A DNA stretch of 64,000 nt from Glycomyces sp. L485 (GTDB taxonomy: Bacteria > Actinomycetota > Actinomycetes > Mycobacteriales > Micromonosporaceae): positions 139,684-203,683 of the forward strand of contig NZ_JAKZEW010000004.1 of NCBI RefSeq assembly GCF_022548875.1. Reading direction: 5' to 3'. This document shows, piece by piece, positions 5,174-49,241 of this stretch. The notes below the pieces were generated by a model. It made no database searches and was not told the origin of the DNA. It was given only the letters and a program-made list of their open reading frames with translations. Numbering within the stretch: position 1 is the stretch's first letter; each line of letters begins with the position of its first letter. The translations under genes and the position numbers were made by a program.

Positions 5174-7045
<1,872 letters not shown>

Positions 7046-29900: not shown

Positions 29901-30050
29901 GATGATGAAAGCCCCATTGCTCGTATGAACGATGCCGACGGCCGAATTCGGGGACGTTGTCGCCCCGGTCGTTCGCGTGGCTGGAGAGAAAAGCACTGCA
30001 AGCTTATGGCTTGCCGGCTTCGCTGAGATCGGGATTACCCAGGAATCGGG

Positions 30051-31973
30051 TCATTGTAGCTCAGCGGTCACCAGTATTCGGACGGCGGTATCGTTCCAGG
30101 CCTGAATCTTGACATTGTCGTCATCCTCCCCAAGCGACTTGGAAAGCATAGCAAGAACGCTCGCGGACTTTCGAAGACCAACCCGATACAAGGATTCAGC
30201 CGCTGATTCTATGGCTCTACGGGAGGGTTCGCGGGCGTGGCTCAGCCCCCGGTGGGCCAGATCCGCGCAGGCGTCGACCGCGGTTTCGAGCGCCGAGGCG
30301 ACCGGGTCCGCCGCTGAGGCGGTGACGGCGGCGAAGCCGGCGGAGTCGTCGCCGGGGGCCAGGTCGGGCACGACCGGGCCGTCGGCGGCCAGGATCGCGG
30401 TCGGTTCGACGACCAACCCGCCGCGCTGACGGCTCACGGCCCCGGCGAGGGCGGACGGTTCGCGGCCGAGCGCGTCTTCGACGGCCTCCAGCGCGCCTGG
30501 GGCGGCGGCGCTGTAAGCCGCGCGCACCAGCGCCCTGCCGCCGCCAGGAGCGGTGATGGCGGCCTCAACGCGCTGGGCGGCCGGGTCGTAGCCGATCGAC
30601 TCGACCTTCTCGACGGCTATCACGCGCACCAGTTCGGCGGCGACGCGCGGGCGGATCAGGGTCGGCGGCAGGGCGTCGAGCCGTTCGGTCAGCGCGTCGA
30701 GGTCGGTGACGCGCAGGCCGGCGGGCAGGTCGTCCCAGGACCGGCCGAGCGGGAGTACCTGGGTCTTGGCCAGGCGGCCGTTGCCGAGCCTGAGCGATCG
30801 GGCGGCGGTGCGGCTGGCGGCCTCGGAGACGACGTTGCCACCGGCCATGGCGCCGATACGGCAGCCGGCCAGACGCCGCCCGGCCAGGTCGTGCCCGGTG
30901 AGTCGGCCGCTCTCGGGAAGCTCCCAGTCGCGTTTGACGGTCAGTACCATTCCGGTCTCGGGCTGGGCGAAGTACAACTCGACGGTGCGCCGGTCGCCCT
31001 CGGTGCCGACGCGGCAGCCCATGCCCGTCAGCCGCAGCAGGGTCAGCGGGGTCTCGGCGGCCTCGTCGCTGCCGAGGATCGCAGCGTTGGGGGTGCCCGA
31101 GTCGGATCGTCCGGCGCGCTCGCGGGCGGGGATCTCGGCGAGCAGGGCGGCGAGCCGCCGCTGGTCGTAGGCGGCAGACCGGTCGTGATAGCGCTCAAGC
31201 TGGGCGATCAGGTCCGCGAGGGCTCCGGCGGGCCAGTGGAGGCGGCGGACCGTCAAGGCCTTGGCCTCGCGGGCGAGCGCGGCGCGAAGGACGGCGTCGG
31301 CGCCCTCGACGCCGCCGAGGAGGACTCTCCGGGCCAGATGGACCGCCGCGTCCAGGTCGTCGGTGCGGGAGCGGCCGCCGACGCTGATCGTTTGCGGCGC
31401 TTCGCCTTCGGCCCGCTCGGCCTCGCGGAAGGCCCAGACGGCCTGGACGATGCCGGACTCGCGGGCCGGTCCGGTGGCGTCGGTGTGGACGTAGCCGAGG
31501 CCGGGCACCAGGAAGGAGACGGTGCAGGCGGGCAGCTCGGCGACGGCGGGCCGGTCGGGACCGGGCCAGGTCAGGCGCGTGGTGTATCCGGCGCGGCGGG
31601 CCTTCTCGGCGGCGGCCATGGCGTGGCGGCCGTAGGCCTCGCGCAGTTGGTCGTCGGTGATCGCGGCGGGAGAGGCGACCTCGGTCTCCCCGGTCCCCTC
31701 GTGCTCGCGCTGGTAGGCCAGGACGGCGCCGACGCGGTGGCGGCACTTCGAAGGGGCCGGGCAGGTGCAGGTGGCGGCTTCCATGCCGCCGTGGGCGGGC
31801 AGGGCGGTCTCAGTCCGGTCGGGAAAGGTCGCGCGGACCGTCCCGTCCGGATCGGTCTCCAGGAGCGGGGCGGTCCCGGCGTCGAGTTCCTTGGCGGCGC
31901 GCTTGACCAGGCCGCGGTTGGCCAGCGCTGCGAGGCTGTCGGCGGTGAGGGCGAGGAGGTCGTCTCTGATCAC
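30051..31973 (-). CDS. SWIM zinc-finger protein (YehQ-like)
   Basis: This 640-residue protein has an N-terminal SWIM zinc finger, CxC...CxH, at C69, C71, C77 and H79. The remainder is mixed alpha/beta without a catalytic motif I recognise. SWIM domains bind DNA or protein partners. Its place as the last gene after AAA+, DUF5682 and VWA matches yehQ at the end of the E. coli yeh set. The GTG start overlaps the stop of the VWA gene (GTGA), so the two are translationally coupled. An apparent longer frame to 32,465 lies inside the VWA gene. Function unknown. Confidence 0.85.
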   Translation of the reverse strand: MIRDDLLALTADSLAALANRGLVKRAAKELDAGTAPLLETDPDGTVRATFPDRTETALPAHGGMEAATCTCPAPSKCRHRVGAVLAYQREHEGTGETEVASPAAITDDQLREAYGRHAMAAAEKARRAGYTTRLTWPGPDRPAVAELPACTVSFLVPGLGYVHTDATGPARESGIVQAVWAFREAERAEGEAPQTISVGGRSRTDDLDAAVHLARRVLLGGVEGADAVLRAALAREAKALTVRRLHWPAGALADLIAQLERYHDRSAAYDQRRLAALLAEIPARERAGRSDSGTPNAAILGSDEAAETPLTLLRLTGMGCRVGTEGDRRTVELYFAQPETGMVLTVKRDWELPESGRLTGHDLAGRRLAGCRIGAMAGGNVVSEAASRTAARSLRLGNGRLAKTQVLPLGRSWDDLPAGLRVTDLDALTERLDALPPTLIRPRVAAELVRVIAVEKVESIGYDPAAQRVEAAITAPGGGRALVRAAYSAAAPGALEAVEDALGREPSALAGAVSRQRGGLVVEPTAILAADGPVVPDLAPGDDSAGFAAVTASAADPVASALETAVDACADLAHRGLSHAREPSRRAIESAAESLYRVGLRKSASVLAMLSKSLGEDDDNVKIQAWNDTAVRILVTAELQ

Positions 31974-33094
31974 GTTCCGTGCCTTTCGGCGACGAACTCG
32001 GCGAGGTGGGCGGGGGTCATGGCCCCGACATGGGCGCCGAGGGCGGCCATGCGCCCGGCGAGGTCGCGGTGGTAGTCGGGATCGGCCTCTTCGTCGAGTG
32101 CGGCCAGTCCGAGTACCTGGGTGCCCTGTTCGCACAGTTGCTTGACGGTGTGCAGGAGCCGGCGCTCGCTGCCGCCCTCGTAGAAGTCGGTGACGACGGC
32201 GACGATCGCGCGGCGGGGGTTCTCGACCAGGCCGGAGGCGTAGTCGACGGCGCGGGCGATGTCGGTGCCGCCACCGAGCTGGACCTTCATGAGCAGCTCG
32301 ACAGGGTCGTCCACTTCGGAGGTGAGGTCGACGACGTCGCTGTCGAAGGCGACCAGGTGGGTTTTCAGGCCCGGCAGGGCGTACAGGCATGAGGCGGTCA
32401 CCGCGGAGTGGATGACCGATCCGGCCATCGACCCGGACTGGTCGACCAGCAGGATCAGTTGCCACTGTTCGAGGCGCCTGGCGGTGCGAGAGTGGAAGTA
32501 GGGCCGTTCGATGGCGACCCGGCGATCCTCGGGCCGGTAGTGGGCGAGGTTGGCCCGCAGGGTGCGGCGAAGGTCGAAGTCGCGGGCGCGGCGGTGGTGG
32601 CTGGGGCGGCGGGCGCGGCTGCCGGTGAATGCGGTGCGCACCTCGACCGAGAGCTTCTCGACCAGCTGCCGGACGACCTCGGAGACGATGCGGCGGGCGG
32701 CGGCAAGCACTTCGGGGTTCATCAGGTGCTTGGTTCGCAGGACGGCTTTGAGCAGGGCCGGGTTCGGATCGATCCGGCCGAGTATTTCGGGATCGGTGAC
32801 GACGTCGTCGATCTCGTAGCGCTCGATGGCGTCGCGTTCGAGCCGTTCGACGGTCTCCTTGGGAAAGAGCCGGTGGATCTGATCAATCCAGTCCACAGTG
32901 GTGACGATGGAGGGTCCGTCGCCGCCTTCGCGCGTGCCGCCGCGGCGGACGTCTCGCCTGTCGAGGTCGCCGTCGCGGCTGTAGAGCCAATCGAGGGCGG
33001 CGTCGCGGGCGGCGGCCCGCTCGCCCAAGGCGCCGGTGTGCCGTTCGGCGGCGGGCCCTAGGACCAGCCGCCAACGTTCCAGGTCTGCGCTCAC
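31970..33094 (-). CDS. VWA-domain protein (YehP-like), partner of the MoxR ATPase
   Basis: In this 374-residue protein the N-terminal half is helical (about 1-200) and the C-terminal half is a von Willebrand A domain. All MIDAS residues are present: D218-Q-S220-G-S222, T277 in GGGTDIA, and D303 in VTDFYEGG. VWA proteins of this kind act as metal-dependent adaptors that link MoxR ATPases to targets. The GTG start overlaps the DUF5682 stop by 4 bp and the stop overlaps the SWIM start by 4 bp, so the three proteins are made as a set. Confidence 0.88.
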   Translation of the reverse strand: MSADLERWRLVLGPAAERHTGALGERAAARDAALDWLYSRDGDLDRRDVRRGGTREGGDGPSIVTTVDWIDQIHRLFPKETVERLERDAIERYEIDDVVTDPEILGRIDPNPALLKAVLRTKHLMNPEVLAAARRIVSEVVRQLVEKLSVEVRTAFTGSRARRPSHHRRARDFDLRRTLRANLAHYRPEDRRVAIERPYFHSRTARRLEQWQLILLVDQSGSMAGSVIHSAVTASCLYALPGLKTHLVAFDSDVVDLTSEVDDPVELLMKVQLGGGTDIARAVDYASGLVENPRRAIVAVVTDFYEGGSERRLLHTVKQLCEQGTQVLGLAALDEEADPDYHRDLAGRMAALGAHVGAMTPAHLAEFVAERHGT

Positions 33095-35388
33095 TGTCGC
33101 TCCTCCGTTGCGGCGAATAGGTGTTCACGTTCGAGGACGGTGTCGACGCGGGCTTCGAGGGCGTGGGAGGCGGCCTGGACCACCGGGTCGACGTCGTGGC
33201 GGGCGAGCAGGTCGCGGCCCGATCCGGGCGCGCCGCGCCGCTCGACGACCCGCTCGGCGATCTGCGCGCGTTCACGCGGGGGGAAGTGCCCGAATGCCTG
33301 GCGCAGCGCGGGCAGCGCCTCCAGGAACTCCGATTCGGACATGTCGCCGACGAGCTCGTCCACGGCGGCGACCACGCCGCCGTCGTCGGCCTCGGCCAGG
33401 ACCTCTTCGCGCGCGACCGCGAACAACCCGGCGAGCCAGTCGCCGAGGCGGCCGGGGGCGCCGGCGCTCGCGGCGGCCTCGTCCGCCTCCGGTGGGGCCC
33501 CGAGGGACCAGGCCAGGCCGGCGGCCGCTCCGCGCAGGTCGGGCGGGGCCTGGCCGTCGCGGGCGATGCGTCGGCCCGTGTCGGCCACCGATCCGGCCGG
33601 AGGTGTCAGGTGCGGGACGTGGCGGACCGCGTCGCGAACCGCGCACAAGGCTTCGAGGCGCCCGGCGTGCGCCGGGCCGGGCCCGGCGTGGAGACCCTCG
33701 GCCAGCCACAGCGCGCGGTCGGTGCACCGACCGATGACCGCGGCGTACAGGTCGCTCCCGGCGGTGCCGAACAGGTGGTCGTGCCGCCACAGCGCCAGCG
33801 CGACGGCCAGTGCCTTCCCGACCGCGGCGAGCTCGGGTGAGGCGGCGACCGCGGCCTCAACAGCCGGTCCGAGCCGGTCGGTGAGGCGGGCGCGGCCGCA
33901 CAGCGCGGCCCCGAACAGGTTGGCCGCCAACGCCTCCAGATCGCCGTCGGCGCCGCCGATGCGGCGTTCGAGGACGTTCTGGGCGGCGTCGCCGAGGGTG
34001 GCGCCGTAGGCGCCGGCTTCGATGAGGGCTGAGCGGCGGCCGTCGTGGTCGCGGATCTCCCACTGTTCGCTCGCGGTCACCTCCATGCCCTCCGCGGGGC
34101 CCTCCTCGCGGCTGAATCCGGGGACGGCCAACATGCTGAGGCAGTGCATGGCGCGGCTGCGTTCGAGGTCGAGCGGGTCGGTGAGGTCGATGCGGACGGC
34201 TCCGGGGCTGTCGAGTCCGAGCCGCTCCAGGGCCGCTTCGACGTCGGCGACCAGGGGCGGCGCGGGCGTGTCGGGGTGGAGGCGGCCGACACGGGCACCG
34301 GTGAGGGCGGCGGTCATCTCGACGACGACGGGGTGAGTGCCGGGGGTGAGGGTGCCGCGCCTGGTCCACGGCAGGGGCTGTTCGAGGTCGTCGCTGATGA
34401 GGGCGCCGGCCAGGCCGTCAAGCAGGTCGGTTCGGCCGGGCCGGTCGTGGCCGCGCAGGCGGGCCAGGCCGTCGGTGAGGGCTCTCGCGCCGATCAGATC
34501 CGATGTGGATACGATCTGGTCACGTCCGCGCAGGCGGGTCGCGATGAGTTCGACCAGGGCGTCCGCGGCGGCCTGGGGGCCGTCTTCCCACAGCCGCTGG
34601 TAGTACTCGGGCGAGGGCATCCCGGACTGGTATCCGGCGAAGGCGTCGAGCCGTTTGAACGAGTACGGCACCAGGAAGCCGCCGACCTCGGCGCCCTCGG
34701 GCGGCAGGGGCACCGCGGGCCGGTCGGCCGGGCCCCGGTCTGCCAGGCGGCGCAGGGCCGGGGCGTGGAAGCCGCCGCAGACGACCACGACCGGTCCGTC
34801 GGTCTCGGCCAGGGCGGCGCGGATCCACGCGGCCATATGGGTCTCGCGCTCGGTGTCGGCCTCGTCGGCGGCGGCCTCGCCGCGCAGCAGCTCGAAATAG
34901 GCGTCGAGCCGTTCGGCGAGGCCGTCCGGGTCGGCGACCTCGACCAGGTGGTCCCACAGGGCGTCGGAGTTGTCGACGGCGAGTTCGCGGCACAGCCGCT
35001 CGGTCGCCTCACCGTAGCGCCTCTCGGCGTCGGAGTAGCGGTTCTCGATCCCGGCGAAGGCGTCGTGCCAGGCGGGCAGGTCGATGAACCGGACCTCGGC
35101 CCCGGCCCGGCGGGCGGCCGCGAGGGCGATCCACTCGGGTGAGTAGTCGCAGAACGGCGTCCAGGTGCGCCGCATGTCGCCTTCGGTGCCGGTGTAGGAG
35201 TAGATCGCCACGGGCAGCGCGTGGTCGAGGGCGAGCTCGTCGAGCCGGTCGTTGAAGTCGGCCGGGCCCTCGATGAGCACCGCGGCGGGCCGGAGCCGTT
35301 CGACCGTGTCGGCGACCAGGCGCGCGCAGGCCGGCGAGTGGTGGCGCACGCCGAGTATGTGCAGTCGGTCTCGGGAAGACATGAGCAT
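33091..35388 (-). CDS. DUF5682 protein (YehM-like)
   Basis: This 765-residue protein is close to the length of E. coli YehM. Its N-terminus has the motif ILGVRHHSPACARLV (about 11-25), followed by VLIEGPADFND and FIDLPAWHD. The segment CGGFHAPAL (about 200-208) suggests a hydrolase-like fold, but the activity is unknown. The C-terminal half is Ala/Leu-rich and helical. The ATG 35388 shares one base with the AAA+ gene stop (TGATG); a second ATG lies two codons in. A frame extending to 37,107 is spurious, since it runs through the AAA+ and DUF4132 genes. Confidence 0.85.
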   Translation of the reverse strand: MLMSSRDRLHILGVRHHSPACARLVADTVERLRPAAVLIEGPADFNDRLDELALDHALPVAIYSYTGTEGDMRRTWTPFCDYSPEWIALAAARRAGAEVRFIDLPAWHDAFAGIENRYSDAERRYGEATERLCRELAVDNSDALWDHLVEVADPDGLAERLDAYFELLRGEAAADEADTERETHMAAWIRAALAETDGPVVVVCGGFHAPALRRLADRGPADRPAVPLPPEGAEVGGFLVPYSFKRLDAFAGYQSGMPSPEYYQRLWEDGPQAAADALVELIATRLRGRDQIVSTSDLIGARALTDGLARLRGHDRPGRTDLLDGLAGALISDDLEQPLPWTRRGTLTPGTHPVVVEMTAALTGARVGRLHPDTPAPPLVADVEAALERLGLDSPGAVRIDLTDPLDLERSRAMHCLSMLAVPGFSREEGPAEGMEVTASEQWEIRDHDGRRSALIEAGAYGATLGDAAQNVLERRIGGADGDLEALAANLFGAALCGRARLTDRLGPAVEAAVAASPELAAVGKALAVALALWRHDHLFGTAGSDLYAAVIGRCTDRALWLAEGLHAGPGPAHAGRLEALCAVRDAVRHVPHLTPPAGSVADTGRRIARDGQAPPDLRGAAAGLAWSLGAPPEADEAAASAGAPGRLGDWLAGLFAVAREEVLAEADDGGVVAAVDELVGDMSESEFLEALPALRQAFGHFPPRERAQIAERVVERRGAPGSGRDLLARHDVDPVVQAASHALEARVDTVLEREHLFAATEERQ

Positions 35389-36476
35389 CAGCCCGGCAGC
35401 AGTGCACGCGCCTGGTGCAGGTCTCGCCAGTGCTCGCCTTTGTGCTTGGGCGCGCGCTGTTCGAGGTAGCGGCGAAGTCTGGCGAGGTCCTCGCGGTTGT
35501 CCTTGGCGGCGGCCCCGGCCATGCAGTCGACGATGTCGCCGGCCGCGGCCCGGCCGCCGCGCAGATACCAGGCCTTGATGCCGACGGCGTGGGCGACCGA
35601 GACGGCCTCGGCGGTGGACATGACCGACTGCATCCGGCCGCCGGCGTCGTCGCCGCTGCGCAGGTCGCGGAAGACCCGCACCAGCACTTCCAGGACGTCG
35701 CGGCTCGGCGGCGCCGGCACCCCGGAGCGCTCCAGGGCGGCGGCGGCCTCGGCCTCGACCAGGTCGAGCTCGGTGGCGAAGTCCGCGATGGGGAAGACCG
35801 TCTCGAAGTTGAAGCGGCGCTTGAGCGCCGCGCTCATCTCGTTGACGCCCCGGTCGCGGGTGTTGGCGGTGGCGATGATGTTGAAGCCCTCGCGGGCGAA
35901 CACCATGTTGTCGCCGCCTTCGAGTTCGGGGACGGCCAGGACGCGGTCGGACAGGGGCGACAGCAGCGAGTCCTGGACTTCGAGGGGGCAGCGGGTGATC
36001 TCTTCGAAGCGGACGAGGCGACCCTCGGCCATGCCGCGCAGCAGCGGCGCGGGCACCAGTGCGCGCTGGGTGGGGCCCTCGGAGACCAGCAGGGAGTAGT
36101 TCCACGAGTAGGCGATCTGGTCCTCGGTCGTGGAGGCCCCGCCCTGGATGGTGAGCGTGGAGTCGCCGCAGACGGCGGCGGCGATGAGCTCGGACAGCAG
36201 CGACTTGGCGGTGCCGGGGTCGCCGACGAGCATCAGCCCCCGGTTGGTGGCCAAGGTGACCAGTGCCCGGTCGATCAGGGACGGGTCGCCCACGAACTTG
36301 CGGCTCACGCCGAGCCTGTCGTCGCCGACCACGAACGCGCGGGCGGCCTGGAGGCTCAGTGCCCACCCGGGCGGGCGCGGGGCGGAGTCGTCGGCGGCGA
36401 GCTTCGCGAGTTCGTCGGCGAATCGCTGTTCGGCGGGGGGCCTTTGGAGTTTCGGCTCGGTGGAGTTGTCGATCAT
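35388..36476 (-). CDS. MoxR-family AAA+ ATPase (YehL-like)
   Basis: This 362-residue ATPase has Walker A GDPGTAKS (85-92), Walker B-like LVRFEEI (154-160), sensor-1 Asn N205 in IATANTRDRG, and an arginine pair at ALKRRF (about 219-220). The Walker B Asp is replaced by Phe before Glu-Glu, which is seen in some MoxR proteins but should be checked. It is expected to form a ring that remodels proteins with the VWA partner. AGAAAG lies 5 nt before the ATG, and it starts 9 bp after the last DUF4132 gene. Confidence 0.9.
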   Translation of the reverse strand: MIDNSTEPKLQRPPAEQRFADELAKLAADDSAPRPPGWALSLQAARAFVVGDDRLGVSRKFVGDPSLIDRALVTLATNRGLMLVGDPGTAKSLLSELIAAAVCGDSTLTIQGGASTTEDQIAYSWNYSLLVSEGPTQRALVPAPLLRGMAEGRLVRFEEITRCPLEVQDSLLSPLSDRVLAVPELEGGDNMVFAREGFNIIATANTRDRGVNEMSAALKRRFNFETVFPIADFATELDLVEAEAAAALERSGVPAPPSRDVLEVLVRVFRDLRSGDDAGGRMQSVMSTAEAVSVAHAVGIKAWYLRGGRAAAGDIVDCMAGAAAKDNREDLARLRRYLEQRAPKHKGEHWRDLHQARALLPG

Positions 36477-36485
36477 GTCGGCTTT

Positions 36486-39179
36486 CTAATTCGCGATGCG
36501 GGTGTCGGCGAGCTCGGCGAGCTGGCAGAGGATCTCGGAGGCGGTCAACGGATCGACTTCGGGCGGCCACCGGTGTTCGCGGCCGTGTCGGTACCATCCG
36601 TAGTCCTCGAAGTCGGACAGCTTGACCGAGGTCAAGGTCTGCTCGGGGAACTCCGCGGGGCGACCGATGGCGAAGCCCGGTTCGAGTTGGACGCAGACGT
36701 ATCCCCCGGCGGGAAGTCGGCGCCCGATGCCGGGCTGGTGGCCGTTGTCGACCGGGGCCGCCCGGTGCCACCCGTGCTTCTCCAGGCGCAGGACCCTGCC
36801 CACGTCGACGGTGATCCCTTCGAAACGTTCGAGCCGTCCGGTGGCGATCTCCGCTTCGGTGAGCGCCATGACCGGTCGCGACAGCTGCTCGAACGGCTGC
36901 AGGATCTCGTAGTCGGCGAACACCTCGCTCCACTCGCGGCACTCGTCGCCCATGTGGAGCGGGTGGCCCAGGCGGATGACGGTGCCCGCGTCCAGCGTCA
37001 GGTCGTTCTCGTCGGAGTCGGTGAGCGTGCGGTCTTCGGCGATCCGGAAAGCGGTCTGCTCGCCGTCGGCCTCGGCGAGCCACACCAGCCGCCGCGCCAA
37101 GTGCCACACCAGCGGATGGCCGACGAAGTACCGCTCGAACTCCGGCTTCGACCAGGTACGCCCGTCGACCATGGCCCGCTCAAGACGTTTCACCTGGTCG
37201 GAAGCCACGGTTCGGAGGTCCTTCCTCAACTGGGTGAAGCGCCTGTAGGCGGCTTCGGCCACCTCGGCGTCGTCTCGGGCTCCGGGCTTCGGCAGGCTCT
37301 TGCGGCGTTTTCCGGCCGAGTCGGTGACGAACGGTTTGAGCTGCTCGTCGAAGCCGACCGTGAAGCGGCGGGGTCCGTAGTCGATCACCAGGCTGGAGGC
37401 GTCGTCGAGGCCGAAGTCCGGCACGAGGCGGTCGCCGAGTTGCTCGGCGCTGAGGCCGAGGCCGGCAGCGATGGCGGTGACCTGGCGGCCCGCCTCCCGC
37501 TTGAGGCCCTGGAACTTGACCTTCTGCGAGATGCCGTGGATCGCGCGCAGCGCCGTCTCGGATCCGATCGCGCCCAGCAGTTCCAGTCCGAGGACGGCCC
37601 GCTTGTGGTGGCTCTCCCCCGGCCACTCCCTGATCATCGGGGTCAGACGCGCCACGAGGTCGTCGTCGGCGAAGCACCGCAGCTGGGTGAACGCCCACTT
37701 GTCCCTCGCCGGTCCGCCCGCGTGAAGCCAGAGTTCGAACAGCTTCCAGGAGAAATGCTTCAGGGACCCGAGGTCGCATTCTCGGGCCACGGCTTCGATC
37801 GTGTCGTTCGGTCCGGTCAAGCCGGCGACGGCCAGTTCGTTGAGGAGGTGATCGACGGCCACCAGGGGCAGGGCACTCTCGCCTCCTCGCAGAAGCACCT
37901 GCGGCAGCAGCGCCGGATTCGCCCAGGGTCCGGCTGCCGGATCGGGCCGCGAAGGCGAGGCGACCGCCTCCGGAAGGGCCTCGGCCGGGGCGTCCGGAAC
38001 CAGTTCCAGACCCTCGACGAGCTCGGTGATCCGCGCCTGGTCCTTGTCGCTCAGGTGATGGAACGCGACTTCGAGCAGGGCCGGGTCGGATCGCACCACT
38101 CCGGTCAGGAGTGCCCGGTCCGCGGGCGAGGCGCCGGGTGCCAGCGCCGCGGCCGCGCGGAGCATCCGGGTGGGGAACCGCTTGACCGACTCCAGCGCAA
38201 GGCTCCTCGCGTCGAACGACGCGATATCGCTCAGCAGTGCCGCCATGGCATCGTCGGAGGGAAGCACCGAGAGGGCCGTCAGCAGCAGCAGGCGTTGCTC
38301 GCCTTGACCGTACTCCCGAAGGGTCTTCTCCAACACCGGAACGCAATCTGCGCCGAAACCTTCGACCATGGCTGCCAAGCGCGGCTTGGTGATGATGTGG
38401 TGGTGCAGCTTCGTCCTGCCTGACGCGGCGAGCTGGTCGGAAGTGGTGATGATCGACAGCAGCCATTTGTCGAGAAGGGTCATCTTGTACTCCGCGCAGG
38501 CCTGCTCGACCCATGCCTCCTGGTCGGGCATGAGGTAGGCGGTGGCGAAGCGTTTGATGGGGCTGCCACGGTGCTCGGCGAGCGACTCCGCCAGGGCGAC
38601 GTATTCGTCGTCGGTGGCGCCCGCGAGCAGTGACCGCAGGTGGATGAGGTCCTCGAGCTGGCCGTCCCAGTAACTGGTCGTGGGCTCGAACAGCTCCGGG
38701 ACGGCACGTCGATTCGGACCGGCGTGCTCGAGCGGCACCACAGCGGCCACGCCCAGTGCCTCCACGGCCGCTCGGAATGCGAACTCAGTGCCGAATTCGG
38801 CGCGCCAAGCGCAGAAATGCGACCGCAGTCTCTGGGGGCCCCCGTACACGTTTCCGTGGGAGCCGTCGGCAACCCGGTACCGACGGTTCTTGTCGCTGTT
38901 GGCCAGCGCCCTGATCACTCCGGCTCCGAGCGGGTCCGGCCGGCCGTCGAGGCAGGCCACACCGGCCGAAGCGTACGGCTCGTTGCGCGGATCGGCCAGT
39001 GCGACTCGGATATCGTCCTCCATCGATGCGATGATTCGGCGAATCCGTGAGGGAGCCGATTCGTCGGGTTCGATCGGCCCGGAGGAGGATCCTCCGCGCC
39101 GTCTCGATGTGGCGGCCTTCCATCGCGAGGGCAGTTGGATTCGGTTCTCGTCCGGCAGTTGCGCATCGGGGTGATTCAT
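36486..39179 (-). CDS. DUF4132 protein, paralogue 1 (YehI-like, shortened)
   Basis: This 897-residue protein, counted from ATG 39179, opens with LPDENRIQLPSRW, a signature shared with the next paralogues. Helical-repeat-like sequence follows, then the DUF4132 core (about 640-800) with DYGPRRF, LPKPGARDD, GRTWSKPEFERYFVGHP, LARRLVW and LQPFEQLSRP. It lacks about 220 residues that the other three paralogues have between LPELL.APPW and the WA.PA.LPQVLL segment. An in-frame GTG at 39248 is possible but would overlap the upstream gene. No WGR domain is visible. Function unknown; it is fourth in the tandem, next to the ATPase. Confidence 0.82.
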   Translation of the reverse strand: MNHPDAQLPDENRIQLPSRWKAATSRRRGGSSSGPIEPDESAPSRIRRIIASMEDDIRVALADPRNEPYASAGVACLDGRPDPLGAGVIRALANSDKNRRYRVADGSHGNVYGGPQRLRSHFCAWRAEFGTEFAFRAAVEALGVAAVVPLEHAGPNRRAVPELFEPTTSYWDGQLEDLIHLRSLLAGATDDEYVALAESLAEHRGSPIKRFATAYLMPDQEAWVEQACAEYKMTLLDKWLLSIITTSDQLAASGRTKLHHHIITKPRLAAMVEGFGADCVPVLEKTLREYGQGEQRLLLLTALSVLPSDDAMAALLSDIASFDARSLALESVKRFPTRMLRAAAALAPGASPADRALLTGVVRSDPALLEVAFHHLSDKDQARITELVEGLELVPDAPAEALPEAVASPSRPDPAAGPWANPALLPQVLLRGGESALPLVAVDHLLNELAVAGLTGPNDTIEAVARECDLGSLKHFSWKLFELWLHAGGPARDKWAFTQLRCFADDDLVARLTPMIREWPGESHHKRAVLGLELLGAIGSETALRAIHGISQKVKFQGLKREAGRQVTAIAAGLGLSAEQLGDRLVPDFGLDDASSLVIDYGPRRFTVGFDEQLKPFVTDSAGKRRKSLPKPGARDDAEVAEAAYRRFTQLRKDLRTVASDQVKRLERAMVDGRTWSKPEFERYFVGHPLVWHLARRLVWLAEADGEQTAFRIAEDRTLTDSDENDLTLDAGTVIRLGHPLHMGDECREWSEVFADYEILQPFEQLSRPVMALTEAEIATGRLERFEGITVDVGRVLRLEKHGWHRAAPVDNGHQPGIGRRLPAGGYVCVQLEPGFAIGRPAEFPEQTLTSVKLSDFEDYGWYRHGREHRWPPEVDPLTASEILCQLAELADTRIAN

Positions 39180-39228
39180 CGCCACCAGATTAGGCGGCGG
39201 GTGCGACACCGCGGCCTTTCGAACACCG

Positions 39229-42492: not shown

Positions 42493-42532
42493 GTCGGAGA
42501 GCCTATGCGAGTCATACGACATCACTTCGCGA

Positions 42533-45500
42533 TCATCCGTTCGATGACCGGTCCATTGTGAATCGCAGCAGGTCGGTGACGGCTTCGGAGGCGGCGACCG
42601 GGTCGACCTGGTCGCCGCGGAGCGGCCGGAACGCGGACCTGTGGCGGTTGGCGCTCCGCGCGAACCTGACCTCGGTCAGGTGGTAGGTGGCCCCGTGCAC
42701 CGGCCAGGTGGTCTCGGGCCCTTCGGCGATCTCGACGATCAGGCGGCCCCCGCCGGGCAGCCGCCGTGACAGTCCCGCGCCCCTGCCGGGTTCGTCCCAG
42801 GCCAGGCCCGCGGTGCCGTGACGCCAGTCCCAGGCGCCGCCCGAGAGCAGACCCACCATGCTTACTCGACGACCGGCGAACCGGGTCAGCACTCCGGTGC
42901 GGCGCTCCTGCTCGTCGAGGACGTACGACGGGCGGGACAGCTGCTCGAAGGGCTGCAGGAGCTGATAGTCCAGCGCGGTCTCCAGCCAGGGGTCGAGTCC
43001 GTCGCCTAGCAGAGCGGGGTGGGCGAGCCGGACATCGACGTCGCCGGGGAGCGTCAGCAGCCGGTCGTACGCGTCGGCGTAGCCTTCGGACTCGTCGACC
43101 CTGAAGCCCAGCCACTGCTCTCCGGACCGGTTGGTCCAGATCAGACGCCTCGCGAGCGGGGCGATCACCGGATGTCCGAGGATGTTCCGTTCGAACTCGG
43201 CCAGGGTCCATGTGCGGCCGTCCAACATCGCTTCGCGCAGCCGCCCGGCCTGGACGTCCGCGGCCAGGCTCAGGGCCTTGGCCAGGCGGCGGTATCGCCC
43301 GCGGGAGGCCTGCGCGAGCGCGTCGTCGTCGCGCACGCCAGGTCGGGGCAGGGTGCGCCGCGCACGGCCCCGGTCGTCGACCACTCTCGAATTGAAATGC
43401 TCGTCGATCTCGATGTGGAAGCGGCGGCTTCCGTAGTCGAGCACCGTGGTCGCCGGATCGCGCAGGCCGAGGTCGGGTGCCAGGCGGTCCGCGAGCGACT
43501 CGACCGTGTCGCCTCGCTCGTCGGCGAGTCGGGCGACGAGTTCGCGGGCGTGCCTGGTGGTGGAGGGGAAGCGGTCGAGGCGGGAGATCCGGTAGAGGGT
43601 GTCGAAGGCGGTGTCGCCGCCGATGGCGGCGATCGCTTCGAGCGCGTCGAGCGACCAGCGCTGGTCGGGGCTCGAGGACCAGCGCAGGAGATGCGGCTCC
43701 AGCAGCTCCACTGTCGATCCGTCGCCGAAGCATCCCATCTGATGCACCACCCAGGAGTCGGACTTCGGCTCGTCCGAGGCAAGCCACAGTTCGAACAGCG
43801 CTCGGGAGAATTCGGCGAGCGACTCGCGCTCGCAGTGCTCGGCGAGTTCCTCGACCGGCATGTAGGGCACCTGCGGGGTCCACAGTGACAGTGCGGTGAT
43901 GAGGTTCCCGACCGATTCTCTGGGCACGACGGCGTCGCCGCCGCGCATCACCACCTCAGGGAGTGCCGCGGGGTCGGCCCAGTCCTTCGGCGCCCGCACC
44001 GCCAGGCCGATCGGTTCGAGCGGATCGGCCTGCGACAGAAAGGAGGCCACGCGCTCCCCAACCTGGGTCCCGTAGCGGCCGGCCGCCTCGACGACGGCGC
44101 GGTCGCCGTGCCTGAACGCCAGGTACCGCAGCGCGGCCCACGCGCCGCGACGGGCGCGCGCGTCCTCGCCGACCGCGTCCGGCACAAGGAATTCGGCGGC
44201 CCGGAGGCCGTTCCGGTCGAGCCAGGCGACAGCCCCCTTCCTGCGGACCCTGAGGCGCACCAGCCAGTCGGCGGCGAGGCGGGCGGCCGATTCGCTGAGG
44301 ATCGGGGTGAGGATCTCCGAGCGGATGTTCGGGTTCTCCCGCAGCCGCCGGACGGTGTCGTCGGCCACCTCCGCACCCCGGTGCGCGAGCCTGCCGAACA
44401 GGGCCGAGCCCACGTCCAGACCGCCGATGCGGGACGAGCCGACCGACATCTCCGTGCCCCAGTACTCCTCCTCGTCCCATTCCCAGCAATGCGGTTCGAT
44501 CGACTTGGCGCGGGCGTACTCCTCGAACCTCCAGATGAGCTCGATCTCGCTGGGCGCCTTGAGGTCGGTGATCGGCTTCGTGCGGGGGCCGCGGCGTCGC
44601 CGAGGCCAGGGCGGGGCCGCGAGCAGGCGCGGCAGCCGCTCGGTCTCGGCGGCCGGGAGGCCCCGGCCCGCGGTGACCGCGCGCAGGGCCGCGTGTTCGG
44701 CCTCGGTCAAGGCCGACCGCGCCTCGGCCGATTCGAGGAGCTCGGGGCCGAGGTCGCGGGCCAGTCGCGCCCGCTCGATCGCCGACAGGCCCGGGGTCGA
44801 TGCCGCGGCGGCCTTGGCGAAGCGGCCGGGGAATCGGGTCGAGGCGGACCGGACGGCGGCGCGCGCCTGCGGGTCGTCGCGGTGGGCGAGCAGCAGCGCG
44901 ACCGCTTCGTCGCTCGGCATCAGCGCCAGCCCGTCGAAGATGACCCGGCGCCGAGGGGCGATGGGGAGCCGGCCGCGCAGCGGCGCTGTCAGGAACGGCA
45001 GGCAGCCGATGCCGAGGTGGTGGATCCACTCGGCGAGGACACGGCGGCACACGTACGGCGCGGGGATCCTCTCGGCGCCGCCGTCGAGCAGCCTTCCGGG
45101 GTCGGCCTTGATCGACAAGACGACCGACTCGGACGGACACCAGTCGGCCCCTTGGGATTGATCCTCCTCTCCGGCGTCGCGCACCCACTGGTCCTGGTCG
45201 GGCAGCAGCAGCGCCGCGACCAGGCGCCGCGATGTCGAGTTCCGCTGGGCGGCGGCGGCCGCGACCGCGGCGGCGTATTCGCCTTCTGGGGCCTGGGCGA
45301 GTGCGCTCTGCGCCTTGCGCAGCGCAGGGCCCTTGCCCACCCAGGGAGACTCGTACATGGAGGCGAAGAATGTCGCCTCGCCGATCAGGGGCAGGTCATG
45401 CTCCTCGTCGCCGGGCGGGTTCAGGTTCGGTCGGGCCTCATAGCCGATCTGGGCGATCGCGGCCGCCGCCGCGAACGGCAGGCCGAACTGTCCGGCCCAG

Positions 45501-45859
45501 GCCGACCAGATCTGCCAGTCGACGTCGTCGCGGTCGAGGTCGCACCATTCGGAGTGGTCCGCAAGCGCGGCCTTCCGGAGGATCAGTCCGACCGCCGCGG
45601 CGCCGAGCGGATCGGCCTCGCCGTCGAGGTAGGCGATTCCGGCGTCGGTGACGTAAGGGAGCGAACCGGGTTGGCGCAGTGCCTGCTCCAGCGCGGTCCG
45701 GTGCGCGGTGAGCCAGAGGCGGATCCGCGCCTCGGCCTCGGTGTCGGGACGGCAGTCGACTCGGACCTCGTTGCGCCGCCTGGGCAGCAGCAGTTCCCGC
45801 CATTGCTCGGGCAGCTCGATCCGGTTCTCGTCGGGAAGGTCGGTGATCGGGCGGGGCAT
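42533..45859 (-). CDS. DUF4132 protein, paralogue 3 (YehI-like, most diverged)
   Basis: This 1,108-residue protein starts at ATG 45859, supported by AGGAG 7 nt upstream; an ATG at 45874 in ATGA overlap is less well placed. The N-terminus has DLPDENRIELPEQW, then YLDGEADPLGAAAV near residue 80. The C-terminal core keeps DYGSRRF, LPRPGVRDD, GRTWTLAEF, LARRLIW and LQPFEQLSRP. Between these anchors it differs more than the other three do from each other. A longer open frame to 48,001 lies inside paralogue 4 and is not coding. Confidence 0.85.
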   Translation of the reverse strand: MPRPITDLPDENRIELPEQWRELLLPRRRNEVRVDCRPDTEAEARIRLWLTAHRTALEQALRQPGSLPYVTDAGIAYLDGEADPLGAAAVGLILRKAALADHSEWCDLDRDDVDWQIWSAWAGQFGLPFAAAAAIAQIGYEARPNLNPPGDEEHDLPLIGEATFFASMYESPWVGKGPALRKAQSALAQAPEGEYAAAVAAAAAQRNSTSRRLVAALLLPDQDQWVRDAGEEDQSQGADWCPSESVVLSIKADPGRLLDGGAERIPAPYVCRRVLAEWIHHLGIGCLPFLTAPLRGRLPIAPRRRVIFDGLALMPSDEAVALLLAHRDDPQARAAVRSASTRFPGRFAKAAAASTPGLSAIERARLARDLGPELLESAEARSALTEAEHAALRAVTAGRGLPAAETERLPRLLAAPPWPRRRRGPRTKPITDLKAPSEIELIWRFEEYARAKSIEPHCWEWDEEEYWGTEMSVGSSRIGGLDVGSALFGRLAHRGAEVADDTVRRLRENPNIRSEILTPILSESAARLAADWLVRLRVRRKGAVAWLDRNGLRAAEFLVPDAVGEDARARRGAWAALRYLAFRHGDRAVVEAAGRYGTQVGERVASFLSQADPLEPIGLAVRAPKDWADPAALPEVVMRGGDAVVPRESVGNLITALSLWTPQVPYMPVEELAEHCERESLAEFSRALFELWLASDEPKSDSWVVHQMGCFGDGSTVELLEPHLLRWSSSPDQRWSLDALEAIAAIGGDTAFDTLYRISRLDRFPSTTRHARELVARLADERGDTVESLADRLAPDLGLRDPATTVLDYGSRRFHIEIDEHFNSRVVDDRGRARRTLPRPGVRDDDALAQASRGRYRRLAKALSLAADVQAGRLREAMLDGRTWTLAEFERNILGHPVIAPLARRLIWTNRSGEQWLGFRVDESEGYADAYDRLLTLPGDVDVRLAHPALLGDGLDPWLETALDYQLLQPFEQLSRPSYVLDEQERRTGVLTRFAGRRVSMVGLLSGGAWDWRHGTAGLAWDEPGRGAGLSRRLPGGGRLIVEIAEGPETTWPVHGATYHLTEVRFARSANRHRSAFRPLRGDQVDPVAASEAVTDLLRFTMDRSSNG

Positions 45860-45870
45860 GTCCTGGCTCC

Positions 45871-48800
45871 TCATGCGGTCTTTGTGATCCGCGCCAGCGC
45901 GGTGAGCACTTCGGATGCGGTGACGGGGTCGAGGTCGGTCGGGTGGGGATGCGATTCGCCGCACGCGGCCGACCGGTAGTCCTCGGCGTGCGACAGGTGG
46001 ACCGACTCGACGGTCTGCAAGGGGAACTCCGAGACGTCGCCGGCGTAGATGCCGGGGTCGAGCGAGAGGAGGACGTATCCGCCGCCGGGCAGTGCGTAGC
46101 ACACGCCCGGTTCGCATCCGGCGTCTTCGGGGGCGGCTCGCCGCCAGCCCCAGTGGGTCATGCCCAGGAGGCGGACCGCCTCGATCCGGGCGCCTTCGAA
46201 GCGGGTGAGCCGCCCGCTCTCCAGCTCGTCGGCGGTGAAGGCCATGACCGGGCGGTTGAGCTGGTCGAACGGCTGGATGATCTCGTAGTCGGCGAGGATC
46301 TCGGTCCAGTCGGTCAGGTCCTCCCCCAGTCTCGCGGGGTGTGCCAGGCTGATCGCCGCGTCCTCGGGCAGGTCGAACTCCTCCTCGTCGACGTCGGTGG
46401 GGCTCTTGTCCTCGGCGAGCCGGAAGGCGCGCCGGACGCCGCCGGACTCGGCCAGCCAGATCAGGCGGCGCGCCAGGTTCCACATCAGCGGGTGGTCGAC
46501 GAAGAACTCCTGGAACTCCCCCGTCGTCCACCTCCGTCCAGAGACCATGGCCCGTTCCAGGCGCTCGATCTGGTCCTTGGCGACCGAGCGGAGGTCCTTC
46601 TTCAGCTGCGAGAAGCGCTTGTAGGCGGCCCCGGCGAGCTCGGCGTCGTCCTTGGCGCCGGGCTTGGGAAGGCTCTTGCGGGGTCTGCCGTCCATGTCGG
46701 TCACGTACGGCTTGAACTGTTCGTCGAGGCCGATCTTGAACTTCCGGGGTCCGTAGTCGAGGACCACACTCGACGCCTCGTCGAGCCCGAAGTCGGGGAC
46801 GAGGCGGTCGCCGAGCTGCTCGGTGGTCAGGCCCAGTCCTTCGGCTATGGACCCGATCTGCTCGGTGGCCTTCTCCTTGAGGGCCTTGAACCTGACCTTC
46901 TGGGAGATGGAGTGGATCGCGGCGAGCGCTGATTCGGAGCCGATGGCGCCGAGGACCTCCAGGCCGGTCACGGCTCGTTTGTGCTGGCTCTGTCCGGGCC
47001 ACCGGCGGATCATAGGGGTGAGGCGGCGGACGGCGTCGTCCCCGCCGAAGTGGGCCAGTTGGGTGAGGGCCCAGCCGTCCTTGGACGGTGCCTCGGCCGC
47101 GATCCATTGCTCGAACAGCGCCCAGGAGTATTCGGCGAGCGAGTCGCGGTCGCAGGTCGCGGCGACGACGTCGACCCCGGCGTAGGGGAAGCCGGGGGCG
47201 GCGACGGCTAGGACGGTGGTGAGGTGCCGGACCGACTCGGCCGGCAGCGCGGCCTCGCGGCCCTGCAGAAGGACCTGGGGCAGCATCGCGGGGTCGGCCC
47301 AGGCGGGAGGTTTGGGGATCTTGACGTCTACGGGGTCGAGCGGGTCGGTGTCGATCAGTGCGGTGACGGTTTCGGCGGCCGCCTCCTCGCCGTATTCCTT
47401 CGCGGCGGCGGTGACGTTCTCGGCGCCGCGGGTGGCGATCAGGTGGCGCAGGGCGGCGGCGGCTGCGGCGCGCGCCTGCTTGTCGGTGCCGAGGGCGTCG
47501 GGGATGAGCAGGTGCACTGCCGCCGGGCCGTGGCGGTCGAGCCAGCGCTTCGCGACCGGCCGCAGGGATTTGAGCCGGCGCAGCCAGTCGGCGGCGAGGC
47601 GGGCGGCCTCGCGGCTCCGGATCGGGAGGATCGCGGTGGCTATGTCGGGGCTGCGATTGAGGTGGGGCGTCAACCGGTCGAGGACGTCGGTTCCGAACCT
47701 GGACAGGATGCGTTTGGCCCGAGCCTCCGTGAGCCCGCCGGCCGAACCGTCCCACCGGTCGAGCAGCGGCGCCGCGAGGTCCGTCGGCGCACATGCGAAG
47801 AAGAAGGTGTCGTGCCCCGACCCGGAGTGCTTGTCGAAGCTTCGTATCCTGCGCATCCAGAAGTCGCGGTCGGCCCAGCGGAACTCGGCCTCCCCGATCA
47901 CGGACCAGGACTCCTGTTCGCCTGCCTCCCAGACGAGCCGGTCCTCCAGGAACGGCGAGAGGATCCTGTACGCCGACCGTTTCCGCCTGCCCCGCGTCCA
48001 CGGCGGTGCGACGAGCAGTTCCGGCAGTGCCTCGGTGGAGGCGTCCGGGACGCGGTCGGAGTCGTCGAGCAGTCCGGCGATGGCCTCCCGATCGGCCGGC
48101 GCAAGGCGCGGGAGTGCCGTGTCCAGCAGGCCGGGGGCGGCCCTCGCGAGGCCGGCGAGCCTGCCGCGCAGTGTCGCATCCGCATCTCGGGCCCGCACGG
48201 CGATGGTGCGCAGTGCCCGGTCCGGGAACCGCTCGGCCATGGCGAGCAGGGTCTTCTGGGCGCCGGGCATCGTCAGATGGTCGATCGTGAACTCGACGGC
48301 TTCATCGGTGGGGATCAGTCCGATGGCACGAAGCAGCAGGACGCGTGCGTCCTTGGACATCTCGGGCGAGCGCGTGAGGGTGTCGGCCAGGATCGGCAGG
48401 CTCGCGGACCCCATCCCGTCGACGAGCGCGGCGACGGTCCTCTCGGTGAGGTGGTAGCCGTCGATGTGCGTCCTCCGACTCGCCGCGACGTGTTCGGGAG
48501 CGGTCACCATGGTCCACAAGGCGCCCTCATGGCCGCCGACGGCGGGGAAGTCGGCGCAGGCCTCCTCGACCCACAGCGATTCGGTCGGCATGAGCTGTGC
48601 GGCGGCGAGCCTCCTGGCCGGATCGGTCCGGCGCTGGGCGAGGGCCGCGACCGCGGCCTCGTACTCGCTCTCGGAAGCCGAGGCGAGCAGCGATCTGATC
48701 CGGCCGATCCTGTCCGACGGGCGGTGCCAGCTCCATCCCAACCGATACGGTGCGTCCTCGCCGACGATCGTGTGGGCGATGCCCCTCTGCTCGTAGTCGG

Positions 48801-49197
48801 GGAACCAGTGCGTGATCGCCAGGGACTCGGTCGTCGCGGCGGCGGCGAAGTCGATGCCGTGCTCGACGGTCCAGGCGTCGAGGTGCTCGTTTCGACGGTC
48901 CCGTTCGATGCAGTAGTCGCCCTTGGCCTCGAGCAGCAGCATCACCACCGCGGCTCCGGCCGGGTCGGGATCGCCGTCGAGGTGCGCGGTGGCGGCCGCG
49001 GCGACGGCCTGATTGTCCGGCTGGGCGAGGGCCGCGTCGAGGTCGCCGCGGTTGCGGGCGATGCGGCCGGCGATCAGCGCGGGCGCGGCGGCGTCGAGGA
49101 CGATCTCGGGCCCGGTGCGCCTGCCGCGCCACGGCAGCAGGTGGTTGGTCCATTCGGCGGGCAGTCGCGGGGCGTGATCCGTGTCGGGGTTCTTCAT
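45871..49197 (-). CDS. DUF4132 protein, paralogue 4 (YehI-like), first gene of the operon
   Basis: This 1,108-residue protein has a reduced form of the shared N-terminal signature (APRLPAEWTNHLLPW), then HLDGDPDPAGAAVV. The DUF4132 core, near 830-1,000, has DYGPRKF, LPKPGAKDD, GRRWTTGEFQEFFVDHP, LARRLIW and IQPFDQLNRP. No Shine-Dalgarno lies before ATG 49197. A TATTGT hexamer ends 7 nt upstream, so the mRNA may be leaderless. E. coli YehI is of similar size and also stands first in its set, but it carries a WGR domain that I do not see here. Confidence 0.83.
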   Translation of the reverse strand: MKNPDTDHAPRLPAEWTNHLLPWRGRRTGPEIVLDAAAPALIAGRIARNRGDLDAALAQPDNQAVAAAATAHLDGDPDPAGAAVVMLLLEAKGDYCIERDRRNEHLDAWTVEHGIDFAAAATTESLAITHWFPDYEQRGIAHTIVGEDAPYRLGWSWHRPSDRIGRIRSLLASASESEYEAAVAALAQRRTDPARRLAAAQLMPTESLWVEEACADFPAVGGHEGALWTMVTAPEHVAASRRTHIDGYHLTERTVAALVDGMGSASLPILADTLTRSPEMSKDARVLLLRAIGLIPTDEAVEFTIDHLTMPGAQKTLLAMAERFPDRALRTIAVRARDADATLRGRLAGLARAAPGLLDTALPRLAPADREAIAGLLDDSDRVPDASTEALPELLVAPPWTRGRRKRSAYRILSPFLEDRLVWEAGEQESWSVIGEAEFRWADRDFWMRRIRSFDKHSGSGHDTFFFACAPTDLAAPLLDRWDGSAGGLTEARAKRILSRFGTDVLDRLTPHLNRSPDIATAILPIRSREAARLAADWLRRLKSLRPVAKRWLDRHGPAAVHLLIPDALGTDKQARAAAAAALRHLIATRGAENVTAAAKEYGEEAAAETVTALIDTDPLDPVDVKIPKPPAWADPAMLPQVLLQGREAALPAESVRHLTTVLAVAAPGFPYAGVDVVAATCDRDSLAEYSWALFEQWIAAEAPSKDGWALTQLAHFGGDDAVRRLTPMIRRWPGQSQHKRAVTGLEVLGAIGSESALAAIHSISQKVRFKALKEKATEQIGSIAEGLGLTTEQLGDRLVPDFGLDEASSVVLDYGPRKFKIGLDEQFKPYVTDMDGRPRKSLPKPGAKDDAELAGAAYKRFSQLKKDLRSVAKDQIERLERAMVSGRRWTTGEFQEFFVDHPLMWNLARRLIWLAESGGVRRAFRLAEDKSPTDVDEEEFDLPEDAAISLAHPARLGEDLTDWTEILADYEIIQPFDQLNRPVMAFTADELESGRLTRFEGARIEAVRLLGMTHWGWRRAAPEDAGCEPGVCYALPGGGYVLLSLDPGIYAGDVSEFPLQTVESVHLSHAEDYRSAACGESHPHPTDLDPVTASEVLTALARITKTA

Positions 49198-49211
49198 GCG
49201 CGAAACAATAA

Positions 49212-49241
49212 ACGCCCGCTGCGACAGTTCGCGGCGGGCGT
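49212..49241 (-). terminator. Rho-independent terminator of ctaB, abutting the DUF4132 operon start
   Basis: On the minus strand a 12-bp stem (ACGCCCGC plus GCG, with one G-T wobble) and a 6-nt loop are followed directly by the T-rich TTTATTGTTT. It lies 20 bp past the ctaB stop and 14 bp before the start codon of DUF4132 paralogue 4. The T-tract overlaps that gene's proposed -10 (49,205-49,210). Confidence 0.8.

Follow-up and report, generated by a model that had tools for sequence, protein, structure and literature searches.

The system described here occupies positions 30051-49197, on the minus strand, of a 64,000 nucleotide stretch of contig NZ_JAKZEW010000004.1 of Glycomyces sp. L485 (the whole stretch being referred to as the window). 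Pfam matches and reading of the open reading frames (ORFs) identify eight genes, four successive DUF4132 genes (D1 to D4) followed by genes for a MoxR-type AAA+ ATPase, a DUF5682 protein, a VWA protein and a SWIM-type zinc-finger protein. On comparative sequence evidence we tentatively prefer the view that the DUF4132 proteins are specificity subunits binding a variable, probably foreign, ligand for a single conserved MoxR–VWA–DUF5682 machine, which suggests an unrecognised sensing system in bacteria. In its favour we count the mosaic structure of the Escherichia coli alleles, the same variable windows in Glycomyces, the contrast in evolutionary rates and the lineage-specific expansions, together with the joint presence and absence of the components, the coupling of DUF5682 to VWA by gene order and fusion, and a TraB-like domain. 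A fixed and slow machine with a fast, modular and reassorting partner has the look of one that employs specificity subunits, and recognition of a variable ligand is preferred for this reason.

The E. coli yehI-yehL-yehM-yehP-yehQ locus has the same gene order as the Glycomyces locus, as the first-pass annotation of this DNA had recognized, and is likewise encoded on a single strand by related genes; the Glycomyces MoxR, DUF5682, VWA and SWIM proteins are 63, 40, 56 and 29% identical to their E. coli counterparts (tblastn, E-values 3e-147 to 1e-48). The E. coli locus differs in having yehK between yehI and yehL and in the WGR domain annotated in some of its DUF4132 proteins, while Glycomyces has four DUF4132 genes. 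That annotation had also supposed that the yehI position has expanded from a single copy, but in the E. coli strains fetched the number is itself two or three, and a set of four is typical of Glycomyces. In K-12, yehF, yehH (a pseudogene) and yehI stand in a row and yehH matches DUF4132; tandem DUF4132 genes are present in all eight further E. coli strains examined (chosen among 25 listed records out of 5323), two in six strains and three in two, counting broken ones. The yehH-yehL stretch matches 5321 of 5426 complete E. coli genomes and is at least 80% covered in 4737. Genes annotated as broken in the eight strains are yehM (three times), yehI (twice) and yehL, yehQ and the upstream DUF4132 gene (once each). 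The yehM lesions are in L193 (15284-18340), L187 and L191, one of them caused by IS1, and the adjoining DUF4132 genes are intact in L187 and L191.

The DUF4132 copy preceding yehI was compared among seven intact E. coli genes, L188 being left out, here and in the rate comparison below, since its upstream gene is annotated as broken. Window means are 92–99% identity over residues 721-1260, and the lowest pairs fall to 22–38% in residues 61-300 and 541-660; between allele types the variable segments, designated V1 and V2, are 30–48% identical. Their borders are sharp: on entering the divergent stretch, consecutive 20-residue blocks of L189 and L191 are 95, 75 and 12% identical, and on leaving it identity recovers from 45 to 95%. 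This pair has 92.5% identity in V1 and 33% in V2, and L186 and L192 show the opposite arrangement, with V2 100% and V1 38% identical. When the 5426 genomes were searched with individual segments, V1 queries matched 4061, 735 and 148 of them and V2 queries 3382, 865 and 619, mostly at 90% or more DNA identity to the query (420 of the 4061 matches to the largest V1 type lie at 80–90%), and the constant C-terminal part matched 5282. Since the sums for V1 and V2 fall short of 5282, further types of both segments probably exist. The copy before yehI thus appears to comprise mosaic alleles in which V1 and V2 reassort, the types having been counted for each segment separately. The neighbouring yehI is less variable, with window means of 83–98% and a lowest pair of 68%. 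In the type I restriction protein HsdS and other mosaic recognition proteins two variable segments reassort on constant parts, and the layout of DUF4132 resembles that of HsdS, with no relation claimed.

The same layout is seen in Glycomyces, where identity between DUF4132 orthologues (nine pairs) is lowest in D1 windows within residues 61-540 and highest at 661-1020. The Glycomyces and E. coli identity profiles correlate at 0.82–0.84; because the best shifted profile also reaches 0.82, against 0.84 for the true one, most of this correlation is a broad gradient. A dip at residues 421-480 common to both profiles seems the more telling point. The variable/constant layout is therefore present in two phyla, and it is the sensor half of the earlier 'client or sensor' proposal that gains support from the variable segments. 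The AlphaFold model of D1 is mostly helical, and most of the 50 Protein Data Bank (PDB) matches listed for it are HEAT/ARM-type solenoids (SF3B1, CAND1, the PP2A scaffold and importins), two at an E-value of 0.001 or below; template modelling scores are low, so that the general solenoid type alone is supported. On this model DUF4132 proteins are predicted to be solenoids of HEAT-like type, in which two segments vary and the C-terminal part is constant. D2 is the most divergent of the four paralogues (34–35% identity to the other three), and D4 is missing almost the whole of the V2-bearing block, D1 399-627.

Evolutionary rates were compared as the ratio of non-synonymous to synonymous divergence (dN/dS), obtained by a simple counting method that serves for comparison and is no test of positive selection. 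In four Glycomyces species pairs the values for the core are 0.02–0.17 (MoxR), 0.10–0.16 (VWA), 0.15–0.22 (DUF5682) and 0.18–0.38 (SWIM), and 0.11–0.26 for malic enzyme as control. Orthologous DUF4132 proteins give 0.30–0.88 overall, 0.45–0.99 in the N-terminal third and 0.23–0.91 in the C-terminal part, leaving out L091:1-3168 versus L093 (52% identity; 0.91 overall and 1.04 in the N-terminal third), which are likely paralogues. In E. coli the order is metG (0.01–0.02), yehL (0.03–0.07), yehP (0.03–0.08), yehQ (0.08–0.19), yehM (0.14–0.15), yehI (0.14–0.21) and the upstream DUF4132 gene (0.24–0.33; 0.07–0.17 in its C-terminal part). Synonymous divergence (dS) of this upstream gene is 0.25–0.69 versus 0.17–0.23 for metG, as would fit exchange of divergent segments.

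A scan for relatives of the window MoxR found at least 544, of which the best 80, all actinomycetes by their titles, were kept; the closest named ones among these are 15 Glycomyces records (86–90% identity) and one unclassified actinomycete bin (89%). Counted by eye, as were the Glycomyces arrays, these 80 loci have DUF4132 upstream on the same strand in 79, DUF5682 downstream in all 80, and VWA and SWIM next in 75, the remaining five stopping at a contig edge. A survey of DUF4132 tandems beside the ATPase set, as the first-pass annotation had advised, showed that 19 of 22 Glycomyces genomes have same-strand arrays of three to six DUF4132 genes, with a single copy in one and none in two; 18 of the 19 arrays share a contig with DUF5682. 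Over all genomes sampled, the copy number beside the core ranges from no intact copy (G037) to six (G214). DUF5682 and DUF4132 are both present in 20 of the 22 Glycomyces genomes and both absent from two (G220 and G227), dispersed copies included (Fisher p 0.004, relatedness ignored). The suggestion of one conserved ATPase set accompanied by several DUF4132 proteins gains from this joint presence and absence, from the variable copy number and from the slow core. In a family sample of 61 genomes with 0 to 20 DUF4132 matches each, the Yeh-type set occurs in 16, as confirmed by neighbouring genes (split over contigs in G021 and G033), and all 16 have DUF4132 (p 0.0002, relatedness ignored). In G006 (20 matches), G044 and G029 DUF4132 has multiplied greatly across the whole genome, for the most part at sites remote from the ATPase set.

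For alignments we combined the window DUF5682 with 39 of 69 long translations, and D1-D4 with 58 of 106 long DUF4132 translations, leaving out segments with stops. A quick tree of 84 DUF4132 proteins, taken from 33 of the 80 loci, the window, E. coli yehI and three loci of the sampled genomes (G), places 52 Glycomyces-type rows in one group (support 100) and shows genus clusters for Lentzea, Goodfellowiella and Catenulispora (100 each) and, more weakly, Actinomadura (94). Since the copies cluster by genus, the arrays grew separately in several lineages. Within Glycomyces there are old groups containing D2 (16 rows, 15 of them from other Glycomyces), D3 (11 rows) and D1 (three rows), with D4 unplaced; to call the paralogues interchangeable, as was initially proposed, is therefore too strong, as they belong to several old and separately kept groups.

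DUF5682 is closely tied to the two proteins beside it. Of 30 other DUF5682 loci, examined with flanks of up to 1.5 kb, 29 have MoxR to one side of DUF5682 and 29 have VWA to the opposite side, and a single polypeptide in L081 combines DUF5682 with VWA (confirmed by Pfam); this flanking pattern and the fusion mark MoxR–DUF5682–VWA as a constant trio. L081 (5374-9186, minus strand) and L032-L035 represent a sister system that consists of MoxR, a fusion of DUF5682 with VWA (Pfam evidence from L081 only), a frame of 1704 aa to which Pfam assigns no family, and a short DUF4132 protein that is encoded separately. In Salinispora (L122:4272-9082) a second MoxR–DUF5682–VWA cluster of another type adjoins the Yeh-type set.

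The N-terminal domain of DUF5682 is probably TraB/TIKI-like and a putative hydrolase. Profile comparison with hhalign aligns it over 187–203 positions with the TraB-family protein PrgY, and four motif pairs occur in matching order (GVRHHSPA/GTAHISSE, LIEGP/CLEWD, ERExxMA/ERDxYLA and GGFH/GQAH), so that DUF5682 shares collinear GxxH, E, RE/ERD and GxxH elements over about 200 residues with PrgY, a member of the TIKI/TraB superfamily to which ChaN and erythromycin esterase also belong. Against six TraB rows the score is 38.5 and the probability 42.8, compared with scores of at most 20.4 for 100 column-shuffled TraB profiles and 14–18 for MoxR, DUF4132 and esterase control profiles, E-values from such single-pair comparisons differing from database E-values. 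All 73 rows compared have H17, H18, P20, E41, D104 and R182, and 72 of them H209. In the AlphaFold model (predicted local distance difference test score, pLDDT, 86.9) strands and helices alternate, with no Foldseek match at E 0.001. Unlike the superfamily, DUF5682 has a long helical C-terminal half. A likeness to erythromycin esterase was considered and rejected, the esterase profile (three of 15 loci left out, two with stops and one of odd length) giving no match to DUF5682 at a probability of 0.1–0.2; this is a distant branch, and kinship may exist without such a match. The TraB Pfam family was itself found in none of 41 family genomes and one of 149 phylum genomes of Actinomycetota, and searching PDB sequences with profiles of DUF5682 and of DUF4132 gave no convincing match.

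In the mechanism that we envisage, the two diverse solenoid segments of a DUF4132 protein would bind a ligand that varies and is probably foreign, and the constant C-terminal half of the protein would dock on a fixed complex made up of MoxR, DUF5682 and the VWA co-chaperone, to which the SWIM protein would be an accessory. ATP-driven remodelling might then pass the ligand to, or release, the TraB/TIKI-like domain of DUF5682, which would hydrolyse or inactivate a target. It is conceivable, if doubtful, that this amounts to a chromosomally fixed, immune-like surveillance machine of Actinomycetota and E. coli in which polymorphic, mosaic DUF4132 proteins feed a MoxR–VWA pair armed with the putative hydrolase DUF5682; equally doubtful is the corollary that its diversity would be held in a gene array in Glycomyces and generated by allele reassortment in E. 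coli.

A close parallel is with the MoxR–vWA ternary conflict systems, of which Kaur et al. (2020; PMC7159879) describe four kinds. Shared features are MoxR, VWA and a third conserved protein, together with a fast-evolving component, which is DUF4132 here. The window MoxR also has a P-loop of the form GxxxTAKS, on which that paper remarks in two subtypes. Unlike the systems as set out in that paper, the third component is DUF5682 and not VMAP, iSTAND, FtsH or a beta-propeller, and the window VWA protein has VWA-type matches alone, with no fused effector domain; the bpMoxR Pfam match is below the cut-off (20 versus 27 bits). If our preferred reading holds, the set would be a further kind beside those four in PMC7159879, and DUF5682 and DUF4132 would gain candidate roles. 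It would also matter because the set is so widespread in E. coli, with no function for it, no report of the allele mosaic and no paper naming DUF5682 found in the literature searched (few subscription papers covered), in which DUF4132 is named by three papers. K-12, the strain most often used for tests, carries a broken copy, and a phenotype may have escaped notice for that reason; a constant machine with hypervariable, reassorting partners provides a testable hypothesis on V1 and V2 ligands.

Several observations weigh against recognition of a foreign ligand by such a machine. The locus occupies a fixed site, the malic enzyme gene following SWIM in 15 of 15 loci (L085-L099, from 14 Glycomyces and the unclassified actinomycete bin; L100 ends too early), unlike a mobile defence island; together with the lack of any match of the eight proteins to PADLOC models, this speaks against a typical defence island. 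Pfam detects no known effector domain in the eight proteins and phage records contain no match to D1. The rate contrast is rough, counting-type dN/dS being so in 70% G+C DNA; one Glycomyces pair has a C-terminal part as fast as the rest (0.91), and the N-terminal part of the E. coli mosaic protein reaches merely 0.17–0.36. The hhalign probability for TraB fell from 67 (66.8, with a profile including one wrong-frame row) to 43 with more rows, Foldseek with the DUF5682 model gave no match at E 0.001, and the missing esterase match and the broad gradient behind the cross-phylum correlation count on the same side. DUF4132 is also found in 23 of the 45 family genomes that lack the set, which is therefore not needed by every DUF4132 protein; the ATPase set seems to need DUF4132 and some DUF4132 proteins seem to do without the set, a number of these appearing to belong to the sister system with short DUF4132. 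Finally, at least one set or DUF4132 gene is annotated as broken in five of the eight E. coli strains (leaving yehK aside).

A serious rival, although we consider it rather unlikely, is that MoxR and VWA form a maturation chaperone that assembles, or inserts cofactors into, client DUF4132 proteins with jobs of their own, assisted by DUF5682 and SWIM, the variation reflecting diverse jobs. The pairs NorQ–NorD and RavA–ViaA, described as acting on specific respiratory complexes, are a precedent in that a MoxR AAA+ protein has a VWA partner as here, differing in their other partners and in having known, dedicated clients; joint presence and absence, the fixed locus and the slow core would all be accommodated. 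What this explanation alone does not predict is discrete mosaic alleles on a C-terminal part that is 92–99% constant in one species. Such discrete and reassorting alleles would suit self/non-self recognition between kin strains, with alleles marking strain identity and not invaders, but this is improbable, as Pfam and PADLOC reveal no toxin or secretion family in the eight proteins (no signal-peptide search was made). A shade less probable is relaxed constraint, in which the solenoid drifts freely in a decaying and dispensable system: the broken genes in five of eight E. coli loci are in its favour, but variable-segment types are few and common to hundreds of genomes, the E. coli C-terminal part is constrained (dN/dS 0.07–0.17) and the Glycomyces arrays are kept. 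Molybdate regulation, after the old name molR and a 1990 report as cited in PMC8533742, is very improbable, since no molybdate family occurs among the neighbouring window proteins scanned and since, as reported in PMC8533742, depletion of the DNA-damage repressor DdrO in Deinococcus radiodurans raised expression of a DUF4132 gene or operon and left moeA and moeB unchanged.

Coordinates of the locus, which is chromosomal in a genome of 4.4 Mb, are given in Table 1. The gene assignments of the first-pass annotation were borne out by Pfam, with E-values of 3e-38 to 1e-59 for the four DUF4132 proteins, the only matches to this family in the whole genome; the SWIM match is below the cut-off (15.2 versus 19.6 bits) and is complemented by the tblastn match to yehQ and a Cys-x-Cys...Cys-x-His pattern. 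NCBIfam matches of the window proteins were all far below cut-off. None of 53 viral contig stretches with the MoxR pattern encodes a relative, and 23 of 72,556 plasmid records match D1, several of them chromosome-sized.

Table 1. Features of the DUF4132–MoxR–DUF5682–VWA–SWIM locus (window coordinates)
Feature	Position	Strand	Basis
D1, DUF4132 protein, 1108 aa; HEAT-like solenoid (predicted) and C-terminal DUF4132 domain	45871..49197	-	Pfam PF13569, E 1.9e-59; AlphaFold pLDDT 90.1
V1, first variable segment, D1 residues 61-300	48298..49017	-	Windows in which Glycomyces orthologues, and likewise E. coli alleles, have low identity
V2, second variable segment, D1 residues 421-540	47578..47937	-	Window identity, as for V1
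More constant half, D1 residues 541-1108; Pfam domain at 837-1018	45874..47577	-	Pfam and window identity
D2, DUF4132 protein, ~1113 aa; start overlaps D1 stop (ATGA)	42533..45874	-	Pfam, ORF, junction DNA
D3, DUF4132 protein; start ATG 42522 or 42492	39229..42522	-	Pfam, ORF, tree
D4, DUF4132 protein, 897 aa from ATG 39179; lacks block around V2	36486..39179	-	Pfam, ORF, alignment
MoxR-type AAA+ ATPase (YehL), 362 aa; P-loop GDPGTAKS	35388..36476	-	PF07728 (AAA_5), E 1.6e-34; 63% identity to E. coli YehL
DUF5682 protein (YehM)	33091..35388	-	PF18934, E 2.2e-107; AlphaFold pLDDT 86.9
Putative TraB/TIKI-like N-terminal domain of DUF5682; motifs GxRHHSP, EGP, RE, GGFH; limits approximate	34657..35364	-	Profile comparison with TraB/PrgY, conserved residues
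VWA protein (YehP), 374 aa; metal-site residues DxSGS and TD present in sequence	31970..33094	-	PF05762 (VWA_CoxE), E 1.6e-57
SWIM-type zinc-finger protein (YehQ), 640 aa	30051..31973	-	29% identity to yehQ region, E 1e-48
Weak terminator-like hairpin between SWIM and malic enzyme genes	29998..30014	-	Motif scan; 8 sites found versus 4.8 expected by chance
TATTGT, possible -10 element, 7 nt before D1 ATG; adjoins G+C-rich hairpin 49213-49240 downstream of ubiA	49205..49210	-	Read from sequence

Genes for a UbiA prenyltransferase and a transaldolase border the locus at one end, and the malic enzyme gene borders it at the other. Placement of the TATTGT box after the hairpin suggests a leaderless operon start at D1; a search for sigma-70-type promoters found none, and the box itself has no match of this type. 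The single SOS-box-like pattern in the window (0.83 expected) is at 6796 and not at the operon. As read from the DNA, D1 and D2 overlap by 4 bp and the last four genes by 1 bp (MoxR/DUF5682), 4 bp (DUF5682/VWA) and 4 bp (VWA/SWIM), in agreement with the 1–4 bp given earlier; the gaps, by choice of start, are 10 or 40 bp (D2/D3), 49 bp (D3/D4) and 9 bp (D4/MoxR). As every junction is an overlap or a gap of less than 50 bp, the eight genes are likely to form a single operon. The co-production proposed in the first-pass annotation is thus likely here and is not general: L121, a contig of genome G033, has no DUF4132 gene within 6 kb upstream of MoxR, and in five loci (L096:8855-9721, L088, L133, L136 and L148) open frames on the opposite strand, judged only by length and a high third-position G+C content (GC3), lie between DUF4132 and MoxR, so that at these loci the DUF4132 genes and the ATPase set appear to be transcribed separately.

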